A DNA stretch of 36,638 nucleotides. Origin: a virus. The stretch covers positions 1 to 36,638 of IMG/VR virus record IMGVR_UViG_3300046011_005003. One strand, written 5' to 3'. How positions within the stretch are numbered: position 1 is the first letter of the stretch; each line of letters opens with the position of its first letter. Position numbers and translations under genes: made by a program. This document shows positions 27,320 through 36,190 of this stretch, piece after piece. The notes beneath the pieces are model-generated. The model was not told where the DNA came from. It saw nothing but the letters and a program-made list of their open reading frames with translations, and did not search any database.

Positions 27320-27561
27320 TCACGGTGGATGGTACGCATACGCTTGACGTAGTTACGCAGTTCTGATGCCAGGAAACGTGTGTTTTCGCGGTCAGGGGTG
27401 TCTGAATAGGTGGCAATCATCCCTTCATCAACCCTGCGGCGGATGGTGCGAGTACTGACAGACAGGATCTCTGCGGCGGTGTCGATGTCGATCAACACCG
27501 ATTGTTCCAGTATTTCTCGCTTGTACTGCTCTACTTCAGCCCGTGTGATATGTGCTGTCAT
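27313..27561 (-). CDS. MerR/excisionase-like HTH protein
   Basis: This 82-residue protein has an N-terminal helix and a winged-helix HTH of the excisionase/MerR type (about 25-65): Asp-Thr-Ala-Ala-Glu-Ile-Leu-Ser-Val-Ser-Thr-Arg-Thr-Ile-Arg-Arg-Arg followed by the wing. It overlaps the terminase stop by four bases, so it is cotranslated with terminase. A DNA-binding gene between terminase and gpW is odd. It could regulate late genes or bind DNA during packaging. Confidence 0.75.
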   Translation of the reverse strand: MTAHITRAEVEQYKREILEQSVLIDIDTAAEILSVSTRTIRRRVDEGMIATYSDTPDRENTRFLASELRNYVKRMRTIHRDR

Positions 27562-29423
27562 TGGTTCTGTACCCCCCGTGATAGTATTCTGCGTGCTGTA
27601 GTTTGGGTTTCTTTGCGTGGTATGCGTAATTTAAGGATCTCTCTCAACGCCAGGGCATAGACGTTGCAATCCCAGTAGTCAATACGCTGTTGTTTTTTGC
27701 TGTGCTGCCAGTCGCCGTGATCGTCTTTTGTTTCTCCGGTGTAGTGCTTGGCAAAGGCACTATCAATATCAGCATGAAAGGCCAGGGCGGTGGTGCTGTC
27801 TGGATCAAGCTGCAGCAGACGCTCAAGCTCATCTTTAAATAGATCAACCCGCAGGTTTGCCCGTGTAAGTCCGCCAGGTATGGCCTTGTTTGTGCCAGGC
27901 CAGGTGGCGATGTTTTTGAAGCTTACCAGATCACCGGTTCTGCCGTGCATGCCTTTGATCGGGATCATTACCCGGTTGCGGCTGCACCATTCGTATACTT
28001 CCATGGTGCGGCTGTGCTTCTGCCAGCCCCTCCGCGTACCGCCTGAGTCAATCAGGCCGTTGCTGATTCTGAACTGCCTGCTTTCATGATCCTGCCAGGT
28101 GGATTGCAGCAGTCCTTCAAGGTCGGTAAATTTCTGCACTATGCCGTGGCGCACCATCTGTAATTTGATTTCTGGTGCATAGCCTGCTGACCAGAGCTCA
28201 TAATAAAAGCTGTCCTGTTGAGTATCCACCAACAGCCAGAGTGCGGCGGTGTCTGGCGGGATAAGATCCGGCGGAGTGTCTGAACAGTAGCGCAGCAGGT
28301 TTTCTTCAGTGACAGCTGCAGCCTGTTCCTCTACAAAATCAATCGCCTCATAGCCGTTTGCCCAGGCTACCTTTGCGGCATGTTCACCCTGTTTGGCACG
28401 CAGCCAGGCCGCGCCGATCTCTGCCAGGGTGATATCAAGGCATTCCCAGGCGCGATGGTGGAAGCCTACCTTGTGGGGGCGGTGGTTATCTGCACCCTGG
28501 ACGCAGTACCAGTGCCCCATTCTGATGGCGTGTTCACGGGCTTGATCATCCCACAGGCTACCGCATTCATTGCAGGCGTAACTGCAGCTGTTGCGCTCGA
28601 CCTCTTCAGGTGTGGCGTTTTCCGGTATGACCAGATGTTCTGTATCCATTTTGATGAATTCATCACAATGGGGGCATTTGACGCGGTATTCCCAGACCTG
28701 ATGGCAGTTCTGCACACCTTTGTAGATAAACAGGCCAGCCGGAGTGCTGGAGAAAAAGCGTTTATACCGGCCTTTGTAGTTGCGGTTCCGCTTTTTGATC
28801 AGGGTTATCGGGTCTGCTTCTTTGCCCACAGTGGGGGGGTATTTGTCTACCTCATCACCAAAGCAGTGCTTGGCTGTCCAGGTGGCCATGGAGCTTGCAC
28901 TGTTGGCGTGTGCCGGCCAGATGGTAACGCCGTTGACCAGGTTGATCCGCGCCAGGGTGGTGTCATCCTGTCGGGCTGAGAGGTAACGGGCCAGCCGGGG
29001 TGATTTCTGCAGGGTGGGGCGCAGTTTGCCGCTGGTTACTTTGGCGGCGGTGTCTTCTGTGGGCATCAAGTAGAAGATGCCGCCGGGATCGCAATCAACC
29101 GCCCATCCGATGCAGTTGATCATGGTGTTGGTTTTGCCGGATTGCTCTACACCACAAAACCAGACTTCACGCACCCAGGGCAGGCCAAAGGTATCCATGA
29201 TCTTGACGGTGTGGGGTGCATAGTCATGCCGCCATGGGCCTTCATGGGCTCCATCGGAAACCACGCGGTATTTTTCCGCCCATTCGCTGACCTTGATCTT
29301 TTCCGGGTGCCGCATAACCAGACGCAGCTGGCGGGGCAGTTCAAAAGATACTTCACGACCTGCCAGAAAGGCAGGGAAGTGATCCGGCAGCGGGATGGTA
29401 TGGGAGAGCAGGGCGGGTTGCAT
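27558..29423 (-). CDS. terL: Terminase large subunit (gpA-like)
   Basis: This 621-residue protein matches the lambda gpA terminase family. Walker A is Gly-Val-Glu-Gln-Ser-Gly-Lys-Thr (91-98), Walker B carries Asp190-Glu191, and the coupling motif Ser-Ser-Thr-Pro lies at 225-228. A zinc-binding insert has Cys250, Cys253, Cys284 and Cys287, and the nuclease domain begins near Leu-Leu-Val-Asp (about 395). It packages DNA and cuts at cos. gpA-type terminases leave 12-nt 5' ends in lambda, matching the terminal repeats of this genome. Confidence 0.95.
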   Translation of the reverse strand: MQPALLSHTIPLPDHFPAFLAGREVSFELPRQLRLVMRHPEKIKVSEWAEKYRVVSDGAHEGPWRHDYAPHTVKIMDTFGLPWVREVWFCGVEQSGKTNTMINCIGWAVDCDPGGIFYLMPTEDTAAKVTSGKLRPTLQKSPRLARYLSARQDDTTLARINLVNGVTIWPAHANSASSMATWTAKHCFGDEVDKYPPTVGKEADPITLIKKRNRNYKGRYKRFFSSTPAGLFIYKGVQNCHQVWEYRVKCPHCDEFIKMDTEHLVIPENATPEEVERNSCSYACNECGSLWDDQAREHAIRMGHWYCVQGADNHRPHKVGFHHRAWECLDITLAEIGAAWLRAKQGEHAAKVAWANGYEAIDFVEEQAAAVTEENLLRYCSDTPPDLIPPDTAALWLLVDTQQDSFYYELWSAGYAPEIKLQMVRHGIVQKFTDLEGLLQSTWQDHESRQFRISNGLIDSGGTRRGWQKHSRTMEVYEWCSRNRVMIPIKGMHGRTGDLVSFKNIATWPGTNKAIPGGLTRANLRVDLFKDELERLLQLDPDSTTALAFHADIDSAFAKHYTGETKDDHGDWQHSKKQQRIDYWDCNVYALALREILKLRIPRKETQTTARRILSRGVQNQ

Positions 29424-29956
29424 TAATCTGTTTCCTGATCCTTTGTGAACATCCCTTCAATACGTCCGGCGTTGACTACTTCGTTAAATGCTCGGCTTAC
29501 CAGTTCTTCTGCCTGTTCGTACACTTCTGGACCACGGGCCGGATCACCACCGGCAGCATGGATGATGGCCACGCTGCCAATGTGTATCTGGTGCCGCAGG
29601 CTATCACGCAGGGTGCCGATAACGGCGGCCATTTGTGCCCAGGCTTCTTCTTTCTGCAGCCAGTTGGCATCTTCTTTACGGTTGGCGATACGGGCCTTTT
29701 CTACTTCCATTTCCAGCTTTTCAATTTCTAACCGGCGTTTTTTATCTTCCTGGTCAATTGACGGGGCTGCCTGCCTGACAAAACCGAAGACTTTTTCTGC
29801 GTATTCCATGACCTGGTATTTACTGAGAGTCTTATCAGCGGCAATGCTGATCTTGCCATCAGCACAGTCTTGATAAAACTTGCCGGTGCTGATCTGGCCA
29901 CGGTTCTGCAGCCACAGCAGGGCTTCTTTTCGGTTTTTGAAGCGGTCTTCAGTCAT
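29423..29956 (-). CDS. terS: Terminase small subunit
   Basis: This 177-residue protein has an N-terminal winged-helix-like DNA-binding region (1-60), a central charged coiled coil (about 70-105) and a C-terminal helical part that may contact the large subunit. This layout resembles lambda Nu1-like small subunits. It recognises cos and recruits the large subunit. The start has TGAGG before it, and its stop overlaps the large subunit start. Confidence 0.85.
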   Translation of the reverse strand: MTEDRFKNRKEALLWLQNRGQISTGKFYQDCADGKISIAADKTLSKYQVMEYAEKVFGFVRQAAPSIDQEDKKRRLEIEKLEMEVEKARIANRKEDANWLQKEEAWAQMAAVIGTLRDSLRHQIHIGSVAIIHAAGGDPARGPEVYEQAEELVSRAFNEVVNAGRIEGMFTKDQETD

Positions 29957-30689: not shown

Positions 30690-31066
30690 GGTGATGGCTC
30701 CATTAAGGTTGCATAGTAGTGGCGCTGTATGGTTTGGGCTTTAATCCGGCTGCCGGTGGCCTGCCTGATAAGGCTGGCTATGGTGTTCCAACTCTCCGGC
30801 TTTTTGGCTGATCTCATTTGTTTAATGCTGTCAATAAACGGCCGTACCAGTTCTATGGTGCGGTCTTTTAGCAGGCTGTTGGGTAGTTTGTTGGCTTTAA
30901 GGTCTGCAGTCATCGGCATGACTGGAGTTATTTCCAGCGCCGTGCGGGTTCCGCAGTTGATGCACTTGTAGACCAGTTCTCCCAGGTAGCGGGCACCGCC
31001 ACCGTCTATCTGCCGGCATTCATCATGTCCCTGGTACATCTTGCGGCTGCATTTTGGGCAGTTCAT
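30686..31066 (-). CDS. Zinc-ribbon protein, possible regulator
   Basis: This 126-residue protein begins with a zinc ribbon, Cys-Pro-Lys-Cys (3-6) and Cys-Ile-Asn-Cys (35-38), followed by a helical region that may be HTH-like (about 85-115). The ATG at 31066 overlaps the upstream stop (ATGA) and has AAAGG before it; the ATG at 31099 lies inside the upstream gene. A role in phage transcription control is possible. Confidence 0.7.
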   Translation of the reverse strand: MNCPKCSRKMYQGHDECRQIDGGGARYLGELVYKCINCGTRTALEITPVMPMTADLKANKLPNSLLKDRTIELVRPFIDSIKQMRSAKKPESWNTIASLIRQATGSRIKAQTIQRHYYATLMEPSP

Positions 31067-31194
31067 ACGTTTTCCTTTGCGTGTGGGCAGAAGGGGCAAA
31101 GTTTACCAGCGCTTGAACAGCCTATTTCCCTGCAGGCGGCCTGGTGGCTTTTGCGTATTTCTGCTTTTGTGAGTCTTTTTTCTGTGCTGGCCAT
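31063..31194 (-). CDS. Small Cys-rich protein (43 aa)
   Basis: This 43-residue basic frame has Cys at 21, 26, 33 and 36, with the last pair in Cys-Pro-Phe-Cys-Pro, a likely zinc knuckle. Its stop overlaps the start of the zinc-ribbon gene (ATGA), implying coupled expression. The upstream ribosome signal is weak. No family is recognised. Confidence 0.5.
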   Translation of the reverse strand: MASTEKRLTKAEIRKSHQAACREIGCSSAGKLCPFCPHAKENV

Positions 31195-31208
31195 GTCGCT
31201 TTGTACCT

Positions 31209-31256
31209 TGTTTTTAGGTCGTTATTTCATGTTTTTAGGCTACTAATTGCAGTAGC
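31209..31256. promoter_or_regulatory. Direct repeats and palindrome upstream of late genes
   Basis: TGTTTTTAGG occurs at 31209-31218 and 31230-31239, spaced 21 bp (two helical turns). It is followed by the inverted repeat GCTACT/AGTAGC (31239-31256, six-base centre). The cluster lies in a 130-bp gap ahead of the gene run that leads to terminase and may be a regulator-binding site. No clear sigma-70 promoter is seen here. Confidence 0.4.
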
Positions 31257-31318
31257 TTACTTAATTTCAGCCCCGTATTTTGTCGTTTTTGCCGGGTGAT
31301 TTAGGGTGTCTAATACGC

Positions 31319-31325
31319 GTTAGGT
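31319..31325 (-). other. attC half-site D (R'' box)
   Basis: ACCTAAC, read on the minus strand, overlaps the TAA of the gene at 31325. It is the exact complement of the R' box at the start of the same cassette (31848-31842). No matching R' box is seen downstream before 31195, so the site is partial or decayed. Confidence 0.5.
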
Positions 31326-31615
31326 TACTCTGCTGCTGTTCGGTGCTGCAACCGGCCATAAAAATCAACCGTATCTTGGCTTGGCATCACTCTGCCTTGT
31401 TCAATGTCGCAGACATCAGAACCCTTCACTTTCAGCATTTTAGCCAGCTCTCTGATGCTATAGTCATTCTGCTGTCTTATTGCTTTCAGCTTTTGACCGT
31501 GTTCCCTGTATGGTTCAGGTTGTCTCAACTTTGCATACAGTTCAGGGTGCTTCTCTTTTAGTTGTTCGTCAGTCAGCCATTCGCTTGTGCCATCGGCGTA
31601 ATCGAGGTGGATCAT
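31325..31615 (-). CDS. XRE-family HTH protein in cassette
   Basis: This 96-residue protein has an N-terminal segment (1-35) with Trp and Leu and a C-terminal XRE HTH (about 40-85) with Ile-Arg-Glu-Leu-Ala-Lys-Met-Leu and a Val-Cys-Asp-Ile-Glu-Gln-Gly-Arg recognition part. Its start overlaps the upstream gene by four bases (ATGA), so the two are one unit, resembling a toxin-antitoxin pair in layout. It ends in an attC-type R'' box. Whether it controls its own unit is unknown. Confidence 0.75.
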   Translation of the reverse strand: MIHLDYADGTSEWLTDEQLKEKHPELYAKLRQPEPYREHGQKLKAIRQQNDYSIRELAKMLKVKGSDVCDIEQGRVMPSQDTVDFYGRLQHRTAAE

Positions 31616-31818
31616 GGTTGCACCTTCTCCTTACTGTCCACGTAATCAAAATACTCGTTGACTACTTCAGGCGGCAGATCGTTGACAAATGCCATCTCTG
31701 CCATTGCAGAAAAATGGCTGTCGTTGTACGCAGGATTGCGCTCGTACTCTGCCTGAGATAGTCTGGAATGTGAGTGCATCAGGCTAAAAAGAAACTCTTT
31801 GTTAACTGGTATTTTCAT
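31612..31818 (-). CDS. Hypothetical protein, first gene of cassette
   Basis: This 68-residue protein is acidic with a helical middle. The family is not recognised. The ATG at 31818, with GAGGGG before it, is preferred over an ATG at 31887, which would lie inside the attC site. It lies 24 bp after the attC R' box and couples to the HTH gene. The layout suggests a toxin-antitoxin or regulatory pair, but the protein does not look like a known toxin. Confidence 0.65.
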   Translation of the reverse strand: MKIPVNKEFLFSLMHSHSRLSQAEYERNPAYNDSHFSAMAEMAFVNDLPPEVVNEYFDYVDSKEKVQP

Positions 31819-31841
31819 AATAGCTGCCCCTCGTATTCGTA

Positions 31842-31910
31842 ACCTAACGTGTCGTTCAAGGCGCGACTGGCTCACTCTGTTCGCCATCGGCCTTAACTCT
31901 GGCGTTAGGG
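31842..31910 (-). other. attC: attC-type recombination site A (69 bp)
   Basis: Read on the minus strand the site has R'' CCCTAAC (31910-31904), L'' GTTAAGGC (31897-31890), L' GCCTTGAAC (31862-31854) and R' GTTAGGT (31848-31842). L'' pairs with L' except for one extra G on the L' side. Inner pairs CGA/TCG and TGGC/GCCA continue the stem, with one extra base each, always on the same arm. That is the folded-strand pattern of integron attC sites. The site starts one base after the stop codon region of the gene at 31912. Confidence 0.85.
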
Positions 31911-31911
31911 G

Positions 31912-32205
31912 CTAATCCGGCGCAATTATCGCTTCAGCAATGGTTCTGCCGCACTTCAGCACTGTTTTGCAGCCGTCAACTGGGTCGTTTATTTCAACCG
32001 TGTAACATTCAGCCAGTTCAGCACAGCGTTTGCGCTCTATTGCGGTGGCTTGCATCCATGCTGTTTCCCATGCTTTCCACATCACTTGGTTTGGCCAGTA
32101 ACCAGCTTTGTCAAATGCGGTTCGGCACTGTGTAGGCACGGGCTCCCCTAACGTCTCAATCAACTCGGACTTGCTTACAATGCTTGTATTATCAACGCTT
32201 TCCAT
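31912..32205 (-). CDS. Hypothetical cassette gene
   Basis: This 97-residue protein has no clear domain. Its middle has a Trp-Lys-Ala-Trp-Glu-Thr-Ala-Trp helix (about 43-50) and a Glu-Arg-Lys-Arg-Cys segment seen in several small phage proteins. The ATG at 32205 is inside attC site B, so the first 18 or so residues would be encoded by the recombination site itself. A GTG at 32139, just after the R' box with AGGGGAG before it, gives a 75-residue protein that lies wholly inside the cassette and may be the true start. It ends at the R'' box of attC site A. Confidence 0.6.
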   Translation of the reverse strand: MESVDNTSIVSKSELIETLGEPVPTQCRTAFDKAGYWPNQVMWKAWETAWMQATAIERKRCAELAECYTVEINDPVDGCKTVLKCGRTIAEAIIAPD

Positions 32206-32270
32206 GTGAGCTCTTCTTTCCTGTCTGTCATTCCATCTGGCGCAATCCGGTTATCTCGTGTGCGTTATAC
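32146..32270 (-). other. attC: attC-type recombination site B (125 bp)
   Basis: R'' GTATAAC (32270-32264) overlaps the stop of the gene at 32265, and R' GTTAGGG is at 32152-32146. L'' AACCGG (32252-32247) pairs with L' CCGAGTT (32168-32162) with one extra A, and TTGC (32245-32242) pairs with GCAA (32174-32171). The outer parts closely match site C. The long terminal part makes it the length of Vibrio-type repeats and contains the ATG of the next gene. Confidence 0.75.
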
Positions 32271-32540
32271 GACATCCGCACCTTTGATCTTGGTCAGTAC
32301 CTTCTCTAAATGTTCGGAAAGTATTTCCCGGTGCTTATCGGTGAAGCCCGTATATATTTCTTCTGGTACTGAGTTAAAAAAACTTATGAAATCAGAGAAC
32401 CCACGTAGTACAGCGGCTTCACCTTCTTGGTGGTTGTCAGCTATTGCCAAGCGGCAATCATCAGCGTCAATGTGAAATCCTACTTCGCAAGTGTTTTTAC
32501 AGCCATCAACGTAAATCTCTATGTCCTTGTATATTTTCAT
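32265..32540 (-). CDS. Hypothetical cassette gene
   Basis: This 91-residue acidic protein has no recognised domain; it mixes beta strands (2-35) with C-terminal helices (about 55-88). The ATG at 32540, with GGGAGG five to six bases before it, replaces an upstream ATG at 32570 inside the attC site. It starts shortly after the R' box of site C and ends on the R'' box of site B, as integron cassette genes do. Confidence 0.7.
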   Translation of the reverse strand: MKIYKDIEIYVDGCKNTCEVGFHIDADDCRLAIADNHQEGEAAVLRGFSDFISFFNSVPEEIYTGFTDKHREILSEHLEKVLTKIKGADVV

Positions 32541-32556
32541 ATCAACCTCCCATGTC

Positions 32557-32619
32557 GTATAACAGCTCAATCAACTCGGACTGGCTTACAGCCAGCCGGT
32601 TATCTCGTTTGCGTTAAAT
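32557..32619 (-). other. attC: attC-type recombination site C (63 bp)
   Basis: R'' ATTTAAC (32619-32613) overlaps the stop of the gene at 32614, and R' GTTATAC is at 32563-32557. Inside, AAC-CGG-CTGGCT pairs with AGCCAG-CCG-GTT, with extra T and A bases only on the second arm and a three-base loop. It shares the R''/L'' and L' segments almost fully with site B. Confidence 0.8.
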
Positions 32620-32859
32620 TGCCAATGCACCTTGGCCTAAACTTTCAGCCCTAACCCTGCCGGACTTGATTGCAGATACATACGGCTCATCATCCGGCCA
32701 AGCCGTGCACCTGGTACGATATGTTTTTATGGCGGCATCAGAAGTTTTGAACCGCTTGGCCTCAGATAATTTTTCTGTGGCATTCCAATATTTTCCAGCT
32801 TCCATAAAAAACATAGTCCGTGGCGGTTTATGACCGCTTGTCCAGGCTAAAACAAACAT
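32614..32859 (-). CDS. Hypothetical protein before attC site C
   Basis: This 81-residue basic protein has Trp-rich and Lys/Arg-rich stretches and no recognised domain. Its stop lies in the R'' box of site C, as in a cassette, but no matching R' box is visible upstream. It overlaps the upstream gene by 13 bp, so it may be an original phage gene and the boundary of the array. Confidence 0.6.
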   Translation of the reverse strand: MFVLAWTSGHKPPRTMFFMEAGKYWNATEKLSEAKRFKTSDAAIKTYRTRCTAWPDDEPYVSAIKSGRVRAESLGQGALAI

Positions 32860-33530: not shown

Positions 33531-35870
33531 TTACAATTCATCATCAACCAGTAAAAGGTTGTGGTAGAAGTAGAGCCTTCGCCCTCCACCTTCCCGTTTT
33601 CTTTCAATTTTTGGTAAATGGCCCTTTAATTCTTTGCCGAAGTTGTTTTCTGTCTTTGGTTTATATCCACGCTTGCTGCAAAACTTTACGTACCGCTCAT
33701 AAACCTTGAGCGTTTCGATCTGGGCTTCGTGACATTCTTCAACATGGGAGTTGATGAAGCCGATCACCGGGTTGTTGTTTTCGGCAAAACGGGCCTTGCA
33801 TTCGACCAGGTACGGTATTTCTTCATCCTTGAAACCTTCTTCCTGTAGCAGTTTAAGGGCGTGGATCAGTTGGATGAAGATGCCGTCAAGCTCGGCCAGC
33901 AGTTTATCTGCCAGGCCCAGATCTGGAGTGCTGAAGCTGCGGGCGGTTTCAACGATGATCATCCGACGCAGCAGGCCCCGGCTGGTGTCTTGTATGGGCG
34001 GAAATTTGTTGGCGGCAAAGATGTGCTTGGCCACCGGTTTGAAGCTGAAGCCGTCGCGGTGTTTGTAGCTGGCGCTGATACGATCACCAGAGACAACTGC
34101 CTTGAACATGCCGGACTGCAGCAGGCCGCCCTCGATCTCGGTTGATACGTTTAAGAGCTTGTCTTTCAGCAGTACCCGCTGGAATTGATCTTCAAGGGCT
34201 CCCAGGCTTACGTTGCTGACGTTTATTTCGCCCAGCAGGAATTCCATGATACGGATGAATGTTGATTTACCATCACCACCAGGCCCGATCAGGAACAGGG
34301 CTTTTTCGTGTTTGGTTTCACGGGTGAAGCAGTAGGCCATAAATTTAAGAACTTCACGACGTGAGGCCGGGTCTTTGATAAAATCGGTCATAAACTGGCT
34401 GAATACTGGGCATTGCGGGATGTTGTCAGGATCTGGTTTGAAGGATATATCCAGGCAATAGGTGTTGAGGTTGTCTTGATTATGGGGATCTACTTGCATG
34501 TTTTGCAGGCTGAAGATTCCGTTTTGCAGTGGCAGCATGCCGGGCCGGTCGTTGAATGATCTGTCACCACGGATGCCGGACATATCAGCGACTATCCGCG
34601 CTACATCGGACACGTATTGCGTTTTCCCGACATCACCGAGCAGCACCAGGATCTGGTGACGTATGGTTGATTCGTGTATTTCTTCCCAGCAACGACCGTT
34701 CCATTGGTAAGTGACACCTATTTTGGGATCGTTTGCTATTTTACGGGCGGTAAGTACATCGTTTGCCACCCGGACAGGCCGCAGGCTGCCACCTTCAAAA
34801 TATTTCTGTTGTTCGTCCGGTACGCGCTCGGCTTTTTCAGCACGGCTGCGTCCGGTTTTGCTTTCTTTTTTACCGACCTGGACGGCATCCAGTAGCAGGT
34901 TGGTGAATTCTTCAGCGGTTTTGCCGTGCTTGGTAAACCAGTCAGTTACATCGTCGCCTTTTTCCATGAAGGAAGGCCACTGGATGATCCAGACGCTACC
35001 GGCGGCATCGGCCAGTTTATCCGCTACTTTTTTTGCACCTTTTGCGCCGGGTTCGTCTGCGTCGTAAGCGATGTAAACTTTACGGCCGCCAAAAAAACGG
35101 TTGAAGCGTTTATCATCCCAGCTGTTGGCACCGCTGGTTTGCGTGCAGGCGTTAAAGCCGTTGCTAATGGCGGTAATGGTGTCTTTTTCGCCTTCACAGA
35201 TGATGATCGGGCAGCCCGCCCAGGTTGACGGTGCCGGAAACAGTTTTGCTTTGCCATATCCAGCGCCCCAGCTGATGATTTTATTATCAGCACCACCAGG
35301 CAGGTACAGTCTGATATTGACCATAGCGCCGTCATCGCGCCGGATAGGTATTGCCAGGCGGGTTTCATCCTTGAAGGTACGAAGCCTGAACCCAAAACGG
35401 TCGATTACTTCTTCCGACCATCCGAATTTATCAATACAACGCTTGCGCCAGTTTTCAGGCAACAGTGGTAATTGTTCCCATTCTTTTTCCGGGATGATCT
35501 TTGTTGCGTCATCAGAGGAATCATCCCCCGCGCCCCCCTCCGCACCCGGAGTTAGACCCCCCTTGCGCTTGCCAGATGTAGGGGCAGGAACCGTGCCATC
35601 ACTATAACGGGCCTTGAATGCCTTGAAAGCCTCGGTGTTGTCTGTGTGGCCGGTGGCTGCGCCCCATAAGGCGATCAGGTCGCCTTTGAATCCGCAGGCA
35701 AGGCAGTTGCATGCGTCTTTTACGGCGTTGTATGAAAAGCTGGTGTTGTGGTCGTCGTGGGCAGGGCAGAGTCCGTGCAGTTCATCGCCCCGTTGCTCCT
35801 GGACGGTGAAGTGATCAGTAGCGATCTGCTGGCGCTGGTCTTGTGAGAGGTTATCGGTGGACCAGCTCAT
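33531..35870 (-). CDS. P4-type primase-helicase
   Basis: This 779-residue replication protein has an N-terminal zinc finger (Cys35, His38, Cys56, Cys59). A TOPRIM primase domain follows (Glu226 in Cys-Glu-Gly-Glu-Lys-Asp; Asp270-x-Asp272). Then come a D5-type N-terminal domain (about 440-510) and a superfamily 3 helicase with Walker A Gly-Pro-Gly-Gly-Asp-Gly-Lys-Ser-Thr (529-537). It would open the origin, unwind DNA and make primers, like P4 alpha. The ATG at 35870 overlaps the upstream stop (ATGA) and has AAGGA. The in-frame ATG at 36056 adds a low-complexity Gly/Ser/Arg region that is probably not translated. Confidence 0.93.
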   Translation of the reverse strand: MSWSTDNLSQDQRQQIATDHFTVQEQRGDELHGLCPAHDDHNTSFSYNAVKDACNCLACGFKGDLIALWGAATGHTDNTEAFKAFKARYSDGTVPAPTSGKRKGGLTPGAEGGAGDDSSDDATKIIPEKEWEQLPLLPENWRKRCIDKFGWSEEVIDRFGFRLRTFKDETRLAIPIRRDDGAMVNIRLYLPGGADNKIISWGAGYGKAKLFPAPSTWAGCPIIICEGEKDTITAISNGFNACTQTSGANSWDDKRFNRFFGGRKVYIAYDADEPGAKGAKKVADKLADAAGSVWIIQWPSFMEKGDDVTDWFTKHGKTAEEFTNLLLDAVQVGKKESKTGRSRAEKAERVPDEQQKYFEGGSLRPVRVANDVLTARKIANDPKIGVTYQWNGRCWEEIHESTIRHQILVLLGDVGKTQYVSDVARIVADMSGIRGDRSFNDRPGMLPLQNGIFSLQNMQVDPHNQDNLNTYCLDISFKPDPDNIPQCPVFSQFMTDFIKDPASRREVLKFMAYCFTRETKHEKALFLIGPGGDGKSTFIRIMEFLLGEINVSNVSLGALEDQFQRVLLKDKLLNVSTEIEGGLLQSGMFKAVVSGDRISASYKHRDGFSFKPVAKHIFAANKFPPIQDTSRGLLRRMIIVETARSFSTPDLGLADKLLAELDGIFIQLIHALKLLQEEGFKDEEIPYLVECKARFAENNNPVIGFINSHVEECHEAQIETLKVYERYVKFCSKRGYKPKTENNFGKELKGHLPKIERKREGGGRRLYFYHNLLLVDDEL

Positions 35871-36190
35871 GAAATGTCCTTGTGACTTGTGATGGTGCCG
35901 CCGAATACCCGCTTGATCTCTAGCATCTTGTCCAGTTGATCCGGGCTCTGTTCGGCCAGCTGCCGCATGAATGGTATTTCTGGTGGCGTAAAGAGTGCCA
36001 GCCCCAGGCGCTTGGACTCGGCTACTGCTGCCGCCGGTGCCGGATGAACCGTGCAAAGCAGGATTTCTGCCCCGTTGCTGGCACGCTTGATCTTGACCAG
36101 GGCGGACAGATCTGGTGTAGCAGGTGGTGGTGCCGGGGCATCAAACAGAGACAGGTTGACGCCAGCCAGTGATTGCACAGGACTATTCAT
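35867..36190 (-). CDS. Hypothetical protein upstream of primase
   Basis: This 107-residue protein has a Pro/Ala-rich part (about 20-30) and a C-terminal helical segment (about 75-95). No family is recognised. The ATG at 36190 overlaps the stop of the upstream gene by eight bases and is preferred to the ATG at 36262. It lies between a zinc-ribbon/HTH gene and the primase, so a replication or regulatory role is possible. Confidence 0.6.
   Translation of the reverse strand: MNSPVQSLAGVNLSLFDAPAPPPATPDLSALVKIKRASNGAEILLCTVHPAPAAAVAESKRLGLALFTPPEIPFMRQLAEQSPDQLDKMLEIKRVFGGTITSHKDIS

Follow-up and report, generated by a model that had tools for sequence, protein, structure and literature searches.

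Pieces of integrons are already known from phages: captured host integrons and 17 attC clusters have been described in their genomes, and several of the phage attC sites are used by IntI1 (Qi et al. 2023, PMC9892861). Complete integrons were captured by Vibrio anguillarum p16, Shewanella M16-3 and P1 (with class 1), and a CALIN in the cryptic Shewanella prophage M16-3 begins with a host-type attI (PMC9892861). The locus described here resembles the phage CALIN of that study in carrying an attC array without intI inside a phage genome, and its relatives resemble the captured complete integrons in that intI-bearing integron parts are found in phages. However, the integrases of p16, M16-3 and P1 are host or class 1 copies (PMC9892861), whereas those of the L005 type described below form a clade of their own, and Qi et al. 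2023 (PMC9892861) describe no phage family sharing a host-type attI. Beyond the presence of integron pieces in phages, established by that study, what follows appears to be new: in the searchable papers, outside subscription literature and preprints, we found neither a phage-only integrase clade nor systematic gene inversion nor an integrase-less family with a shared host attI reported.

The array lies in the virus record IMGVR_UViG_3300046011_005003 of IMG/VR, all 36,638 bases of which were analysed and are called the window hereafter. It encodes a large terminase of the GpA type, a primase-helicase resembling D5 and a tyrosine integrase of the phage type, and the array sits between the primase side and the small and large terminase genes, with cassettes that run from D to A, from A to B and from B to C. 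The features are as follows.

27558-29423, minus strand: large terminase gene
29423-29956, minus strand: small terminase gene
31063-31194, minus strand: flanking phage gene, 43 aa; 74% identical in the phage record L005 (1588-1710), there directly after intI
31195-31325, plus strand: attI of the host type (Trichlorobacter/Geobacter chromosomal integron), aligning over its full length with host intI-attI spacers
31301-31325, plus strand: attI core, TTAGGGTGTCTAATACGCGTTAGGT; its R box is site D of the preliminary description (31319-31325)
31320-31904, plus strand: cassette 1, between G|TT recombination points, with two inverted genes; GTTAGGT and ACCTAAC exact complements
31325-31615, minus strand: cassette 1 gene a, inverted, 96 aa, HTH_3 domain (Pfam HTH_3/HTH_31)
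31612-31818, minus strand: cassette 1 gene b, 68 aa, seen as an ORF only; frame open to 31887 within attC A
31842-31910, plus strand: attC A, closes cassette 1; covariance model 33.7 bits, E 1.9e-5
31905-32264, plus strand: cassette 2; GTTAGGG and CCCTAAC exact complements
31912-32205, minus strand: cassette 2 gene, inverted, 97 aa; start codon 53 nt inside attC B
32146-32270, plus strand: attC B, closes cassette 2; covariance model 54.7 bits, E 3.8e-10
32265-32613, plus strand: cassette 3; GTTATAC and GTATAAC exact complements
32265-32540, minus strand: cassette 3 gene, inverted, 91 aa, seen as an ORF
32557-32619, plus strand: attC C, closes cassette 3; covariance model 62.6 bits, E 6.7e-12
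32614-32859, minus strand: phage gene that flanks the array towards the replication genes; phage L020 has a 42% homologue
33531-36056, minus strand: primase side

The preliminary description was right in seeing here, within a phage, cassettes of the integron type that lack an integrase. We believe that this is probably an integrase-less phage integron built on a copy of a host attI; its cassettes, with their inverted genes, would be loaded in trans, the host IntI being the most likely enzyme. The phage itself appears to be temperate, with a host among the Geobacteraceae, as the attI and attC types and the prophage relatives suggest. No match to the window was found among GenBank phages by megablast or in an Rfam scan, and the primase, used as bait for viral relatives, found none. 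All array-bearing phage records are metagenomic contigs, mostly partial, and those of the near-identical phages L002, L003 and L006 stop before the array locus, so that they offer no empty site for comparison. Upstream of the primase, the segment 33190-33530 contains dense (C)GTCCCAAG/CTTGGGACG repeats, including a 34-nt inverted pair that is 97% complementary; they are iteron-like and possibly an origin or repressor region. A lipoprotein-like ORF adjoins the phage integrase (2743-3513, plus strand) and is a possible lysogeny gene.

When we searched the window with a covariance model built from 31 attC of plasmids (class 1 integrons), Trichlorobacter/Geobacter chromosomes and other phages, and none from the window, all three of the previously proposed attC were recovered at their positions, every one on the plus strand (E 1.9e-5 to 6.7e-12), and no further attC was found up to E = 10. 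The attC claim rests on this model because a structural scanner used alone gave about 2.3 chance matches per strand of window-sized sequence; site B, which has a long loop, was found by the model under default filters but missed when the filters were switched off. The three sites have the R''-L''-loop-L'-R' hairpin with RYYYAAC/GTTRRRY boxes, and the extrahelical bases lie on one arm, as the preliminary description had noticed. Covariation is evident in the inner stem of the attC alignment, where 90% of the cells of 12 pairs are paired and 9 pairs have changes on both sides, and when the partners were slid by one column the pairing of the whole structure fell from 87% to about 39%. In class 1 plasmid attC, which the scanner placed on the cassette-gene strand, the unpaired extra bases occupy the same arm, so that all three window sites point along the plus strand. 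Sites B and C are of the Trichlorobacter/Geobacter chromosomal type, and site A is not of host type. With two or more attC and no intI nearby, the array is a CALIN.

Exact complementarity between the R' box that opens a cassette and the R'' box that closes it, already noticed in the preliminary description, holds in 3/3 window cassettes. The stop codons that it had placed in or by the R'' boxes actually fall within or next to the opening R' boxes of the cassettes. Across six phage records the boxes agree by cassette in 18 of 24 cases, against 2 of 29 for the two boxes of a single attC; when the boxes were permuted, a procedure that ignores relatedness, agreement averaged 3.0 and reached at most 10 in 20,000 permutations. 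Host arrays show the same trend (18/30 by cassette vs 7/41 by site). The record G002 contains two copies of one cassette that are identical at 291/291 positions; their identity breaks off at the closing R' box, and at the opposite end the resemblance extends into the adjacent attC, a site of the same type. This R''/R' pattern fits cassette exchange, from which we infer recombination itself. Several phage proteins have SELIE, the translation of the L'' motif, at their N-terminus, and one could argue that the motif is protein-coding (leader SxSELIExLG) and that its resemblance to attC is incidental. We regard this as highly implausible, given the covariation of the stem, the cassette rule of the R'' and R' boxes and the occurrence of the same motif in host arrays with genes on the other strand; indeed, the covariation and the box statistics would already refute it, unless both were alignment artefacts.

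Site D, described earlier as a half-site, turned out to be the core of an attI: beyond the alignment with host spacers, this core is identical at 40/49 positions to that of L057, the best host copy, while the next best place in the window reaches 26/49. The array thus starts with an attI, as an integron array does. The R' box of attC C includes the stop codon of the flanking gene at 32614-32859, and an attG-type insertion at that stop codon was dropped as a candidate because D proved to be an attI. The rule that the R'' box is complementary also predicts the first opening box in G002, G085 and G004, where we found the box with a D-like sequence upstream. Exactly one host-type attI occurs in each of the 8/8 integrase-less array virus records found (G000-G004, G082, G085 and G086, with G002 and G003 sharing one array), that of G086 having two mismatches to the pattern. 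Different terminases and different cassettes are found among the phages with this attI. IntI is present in 7/11 Trichlorobacter/Geobacter genomes, and in the host genomes the same attI stands next to it, with attC arrays of the same type. The sedentary chromosomal integrons of these bacteria are therefore like the phage array in attI sequence, attC type and R''/R' rule.

As had been stated, there is no integron integrase in the window: nothing exceeds the TIGR02249 cut-off, the phage's own integrase scoring 40.8 bits against a cut-off of 265 bits, so that the linked intI of a complete integron is lacking. Related phages, on the other hand, carry an integrase and an attI of their own at this position. 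The closest informative relative is L005, with 66% identity in TerL, 73% in TerS and 67 and 74% in two neighbours; its IntI scores 313 bits with TIGR02249 (cut-off 265), has the IntI 2A3V as nearest solved structure, and is encoded exactly between the cassette and the homologue of the gene at 31063. In L005 the intI, attI and attC are linked in canonical order, and its attC is of the same type as those of the window; no host-type attI was found in it. Relatives of the L005 IntI occur in fourteen viral records and several genomes of the host's class. Terminase, portal or primase genes are close by in most of the loci examined, and a few loci have no recognised phage gene in the stretch read.

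In a tree with 36 chromosomal integrases and class 1, the phage IntI group in a single separate clade (100/100); such monophyly is partly expected because likeness to L005 served to define the clade, and the informative point is that in this tree no integrase of a chromosomal array falls inside it. To judge from these loci, the clade would be confined to phages and prophage-like loci. Its identity to the host and class 1 IntI is about 36-43%, and it is absent from 50,697 GenBank phage records, where the best match was 39.6%. Its attI is a different conserved element from the host-type attI. On the strand opposite intI, attC-like sites were found within 1.3 kb upstream in 10/17 loci, against 0.03 per control block, and most attC of the IntI-bearing phages gave a weak covariance-model match or none. 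The gene adjacent to the phage intI was co-directed with it in 9/12 cases, as scored by ORF length, and the cargo near intI includes C5 and N6/N4 DNA methylases.

An integrase of this clade, supplied by a co-resident phage, might serve the array of the window, or the array might be a remnant from which intI was deleted. In favour of this are the syntenic L005, which has intI between its array and the gene 31063, the monophyly of the phage IntI beside phage packaging genes, and the shared attC type. However, the window attI is of the kind that matches the host attI (40/49), and on an attI profile made from the IntI-bearing phages site D scores 3.7 bits against 10-40 bits in leave-one-out scoring of its members; moreover, the spacer between attI and the gene 31063 is host-like and without any intI remnant. 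We therefore consider such a source unlikely, and loading by an integrase of the host remains our preferred reading.

With the attC polarity on the plus strand, the minus-strand genes are inverted within their cassettes. In canonical cassettes the gene is co-directed with attC, whereas here the inverted frame is the longer one in 3/3 window cassettes. Among the integrase-less phage cassettes 19/24 have their longest frame against attC, in contrast to 1/30 host cassettes (Fisher p 4e-9, with orientation scored mainly by longest ORF and cassettes of one record not independent). An inverted 64-aa gene is common to G001 and G002 (70%); its substitutions fall mostly on third codon positions of the inverted frame (14/11/32), and L098, which has an integrase, carries a weaker homologue. 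In nine of the 24 cassettes the inverted gene starts inside its own attC, and most of these yield a shared leader around SELIE. Since the start codon of the cassette 2 gene is within attC B, the N-terminus of its protein (..SKSELIETLG..) is encoded by the attC, and this leader peptide recurs in other phage cassettes. Chromosomal integrons of the Treponema denticola type also have an unusual direction of intI with respect to the cassette genes, but there the turned element is believed to be the intI gene; in the present case intI, attI and attC follow one another in canonical order, and it is the genes within the cassettes that are turned. Phage attC clusters do not all show inversion: in phage TJE1, whose attC sites were tested by Qi et al. 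2023 (PMC9892861), our scanner found three attC sites again, and the genes run in the normal direction, along attC.

The idea that a host integron feeds genes to the phage is therefore upheld for the entry site, given the attI, the two of three attC of host type and the IntI in 7/11 genomes, and is too simple for the cargo. Host integrons have intI and genes that run along attC in 29/30 cases, while the phage array is without intI and its genes are inverted; as host genes are normal and phage genes mostly inverted, the host pool has not simply been copied into the phage cassettes. Direct exchange between host and phage arrays was not seen, since no cassette gene common to both was found. Published phage integrons include captured host segments (PMC9892861), and the host-like spacer beside attI must come from a host-type integron, so that a piece of host integron captured once by ordinary recombination, now a passive fossil on which no integrase acts, has to be weighed. 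Against it are the phage cassette genes, inverted unlike those of the host, the boxes that are still exactly complementary in 3/3 window cassettes, the 291/291 identical duplicate of G002 that ends at an R' box, and the presence of the same attI in phages with different terminases and different cassettes. Taken together, these make a passive fossil decidedly unlikely.

In the preferred reading of an integron loaded in trans, the temperate phage would carry the copy of the host attI between its replication and packaging genes, and cassettes would be inserted there by site-specific recombination at G|TTRRRY, as the box pattern suggests. The recombinase would most likely act in trans, because the phage has no integron integrase, and the chromosomal IntI of the host is the probable candidate. 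Because the genes are inverted relative to attC, a phage operon running from primase through cassettes and attI to terminase could transcribe them. More broadly, and with somewhat less assurance, we lean towards the view that phages run a branch of integrons of their own, in which some have the phage-only integrase clade with its attI beside the terminase and others a copy of the host attI with the host integrase in trans, both drawing on a pool of inverted cassettes that are expressed by the phage operon and in some cases start translation inside attC. If so, phages do more than pick up integron debris and maintain an integron as a permanent means of exchanging accessory genes near the boundary of replication and packaging; the form with attI only would amount to parasitism of a bacterial gene-capture enzyme, and there would be a direct cassette route between bacteria and phages. 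The question of who moves cassettes between cells would become testable in a Geobacter model.

Among the cassette products, the proteins of cassette 1 gene b and cassette 3 have no family match, and the latter has no relatives in viral contigs. The protein of cassette 1 gene a has a 64% homologue in a Geobacterales genome (L153 of G058, 1477-1770) that is not in any cassette, with no attC detected nearby; it is a possible non-cassette source of the cassette gene. The attI-proximal cassette genes of two phages (L052 8774-9637 and L073 11444-12178) match the BrxP and SspD models, and their products are probably PAPS-reductase-like proteins. Integron-integrase-like genes outside the main clade were seen near GpA terminases in L011 (245-1207) and L013 (1264-2154), with 39% and 34% identity to the L005 IntI, respectively, and a 38% match to the phage IntI, annotated as xerD, occurs in the enrichment-culture virus Rctr41k (KX853513, 4692-5633). 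Finally, the phage of record G085, which also has an attC array, carries a reverse-transcriptase-like gene beside two similar genes (L085 10827-13790), a locus that resembles a diversity-generating retroelement and may be one.
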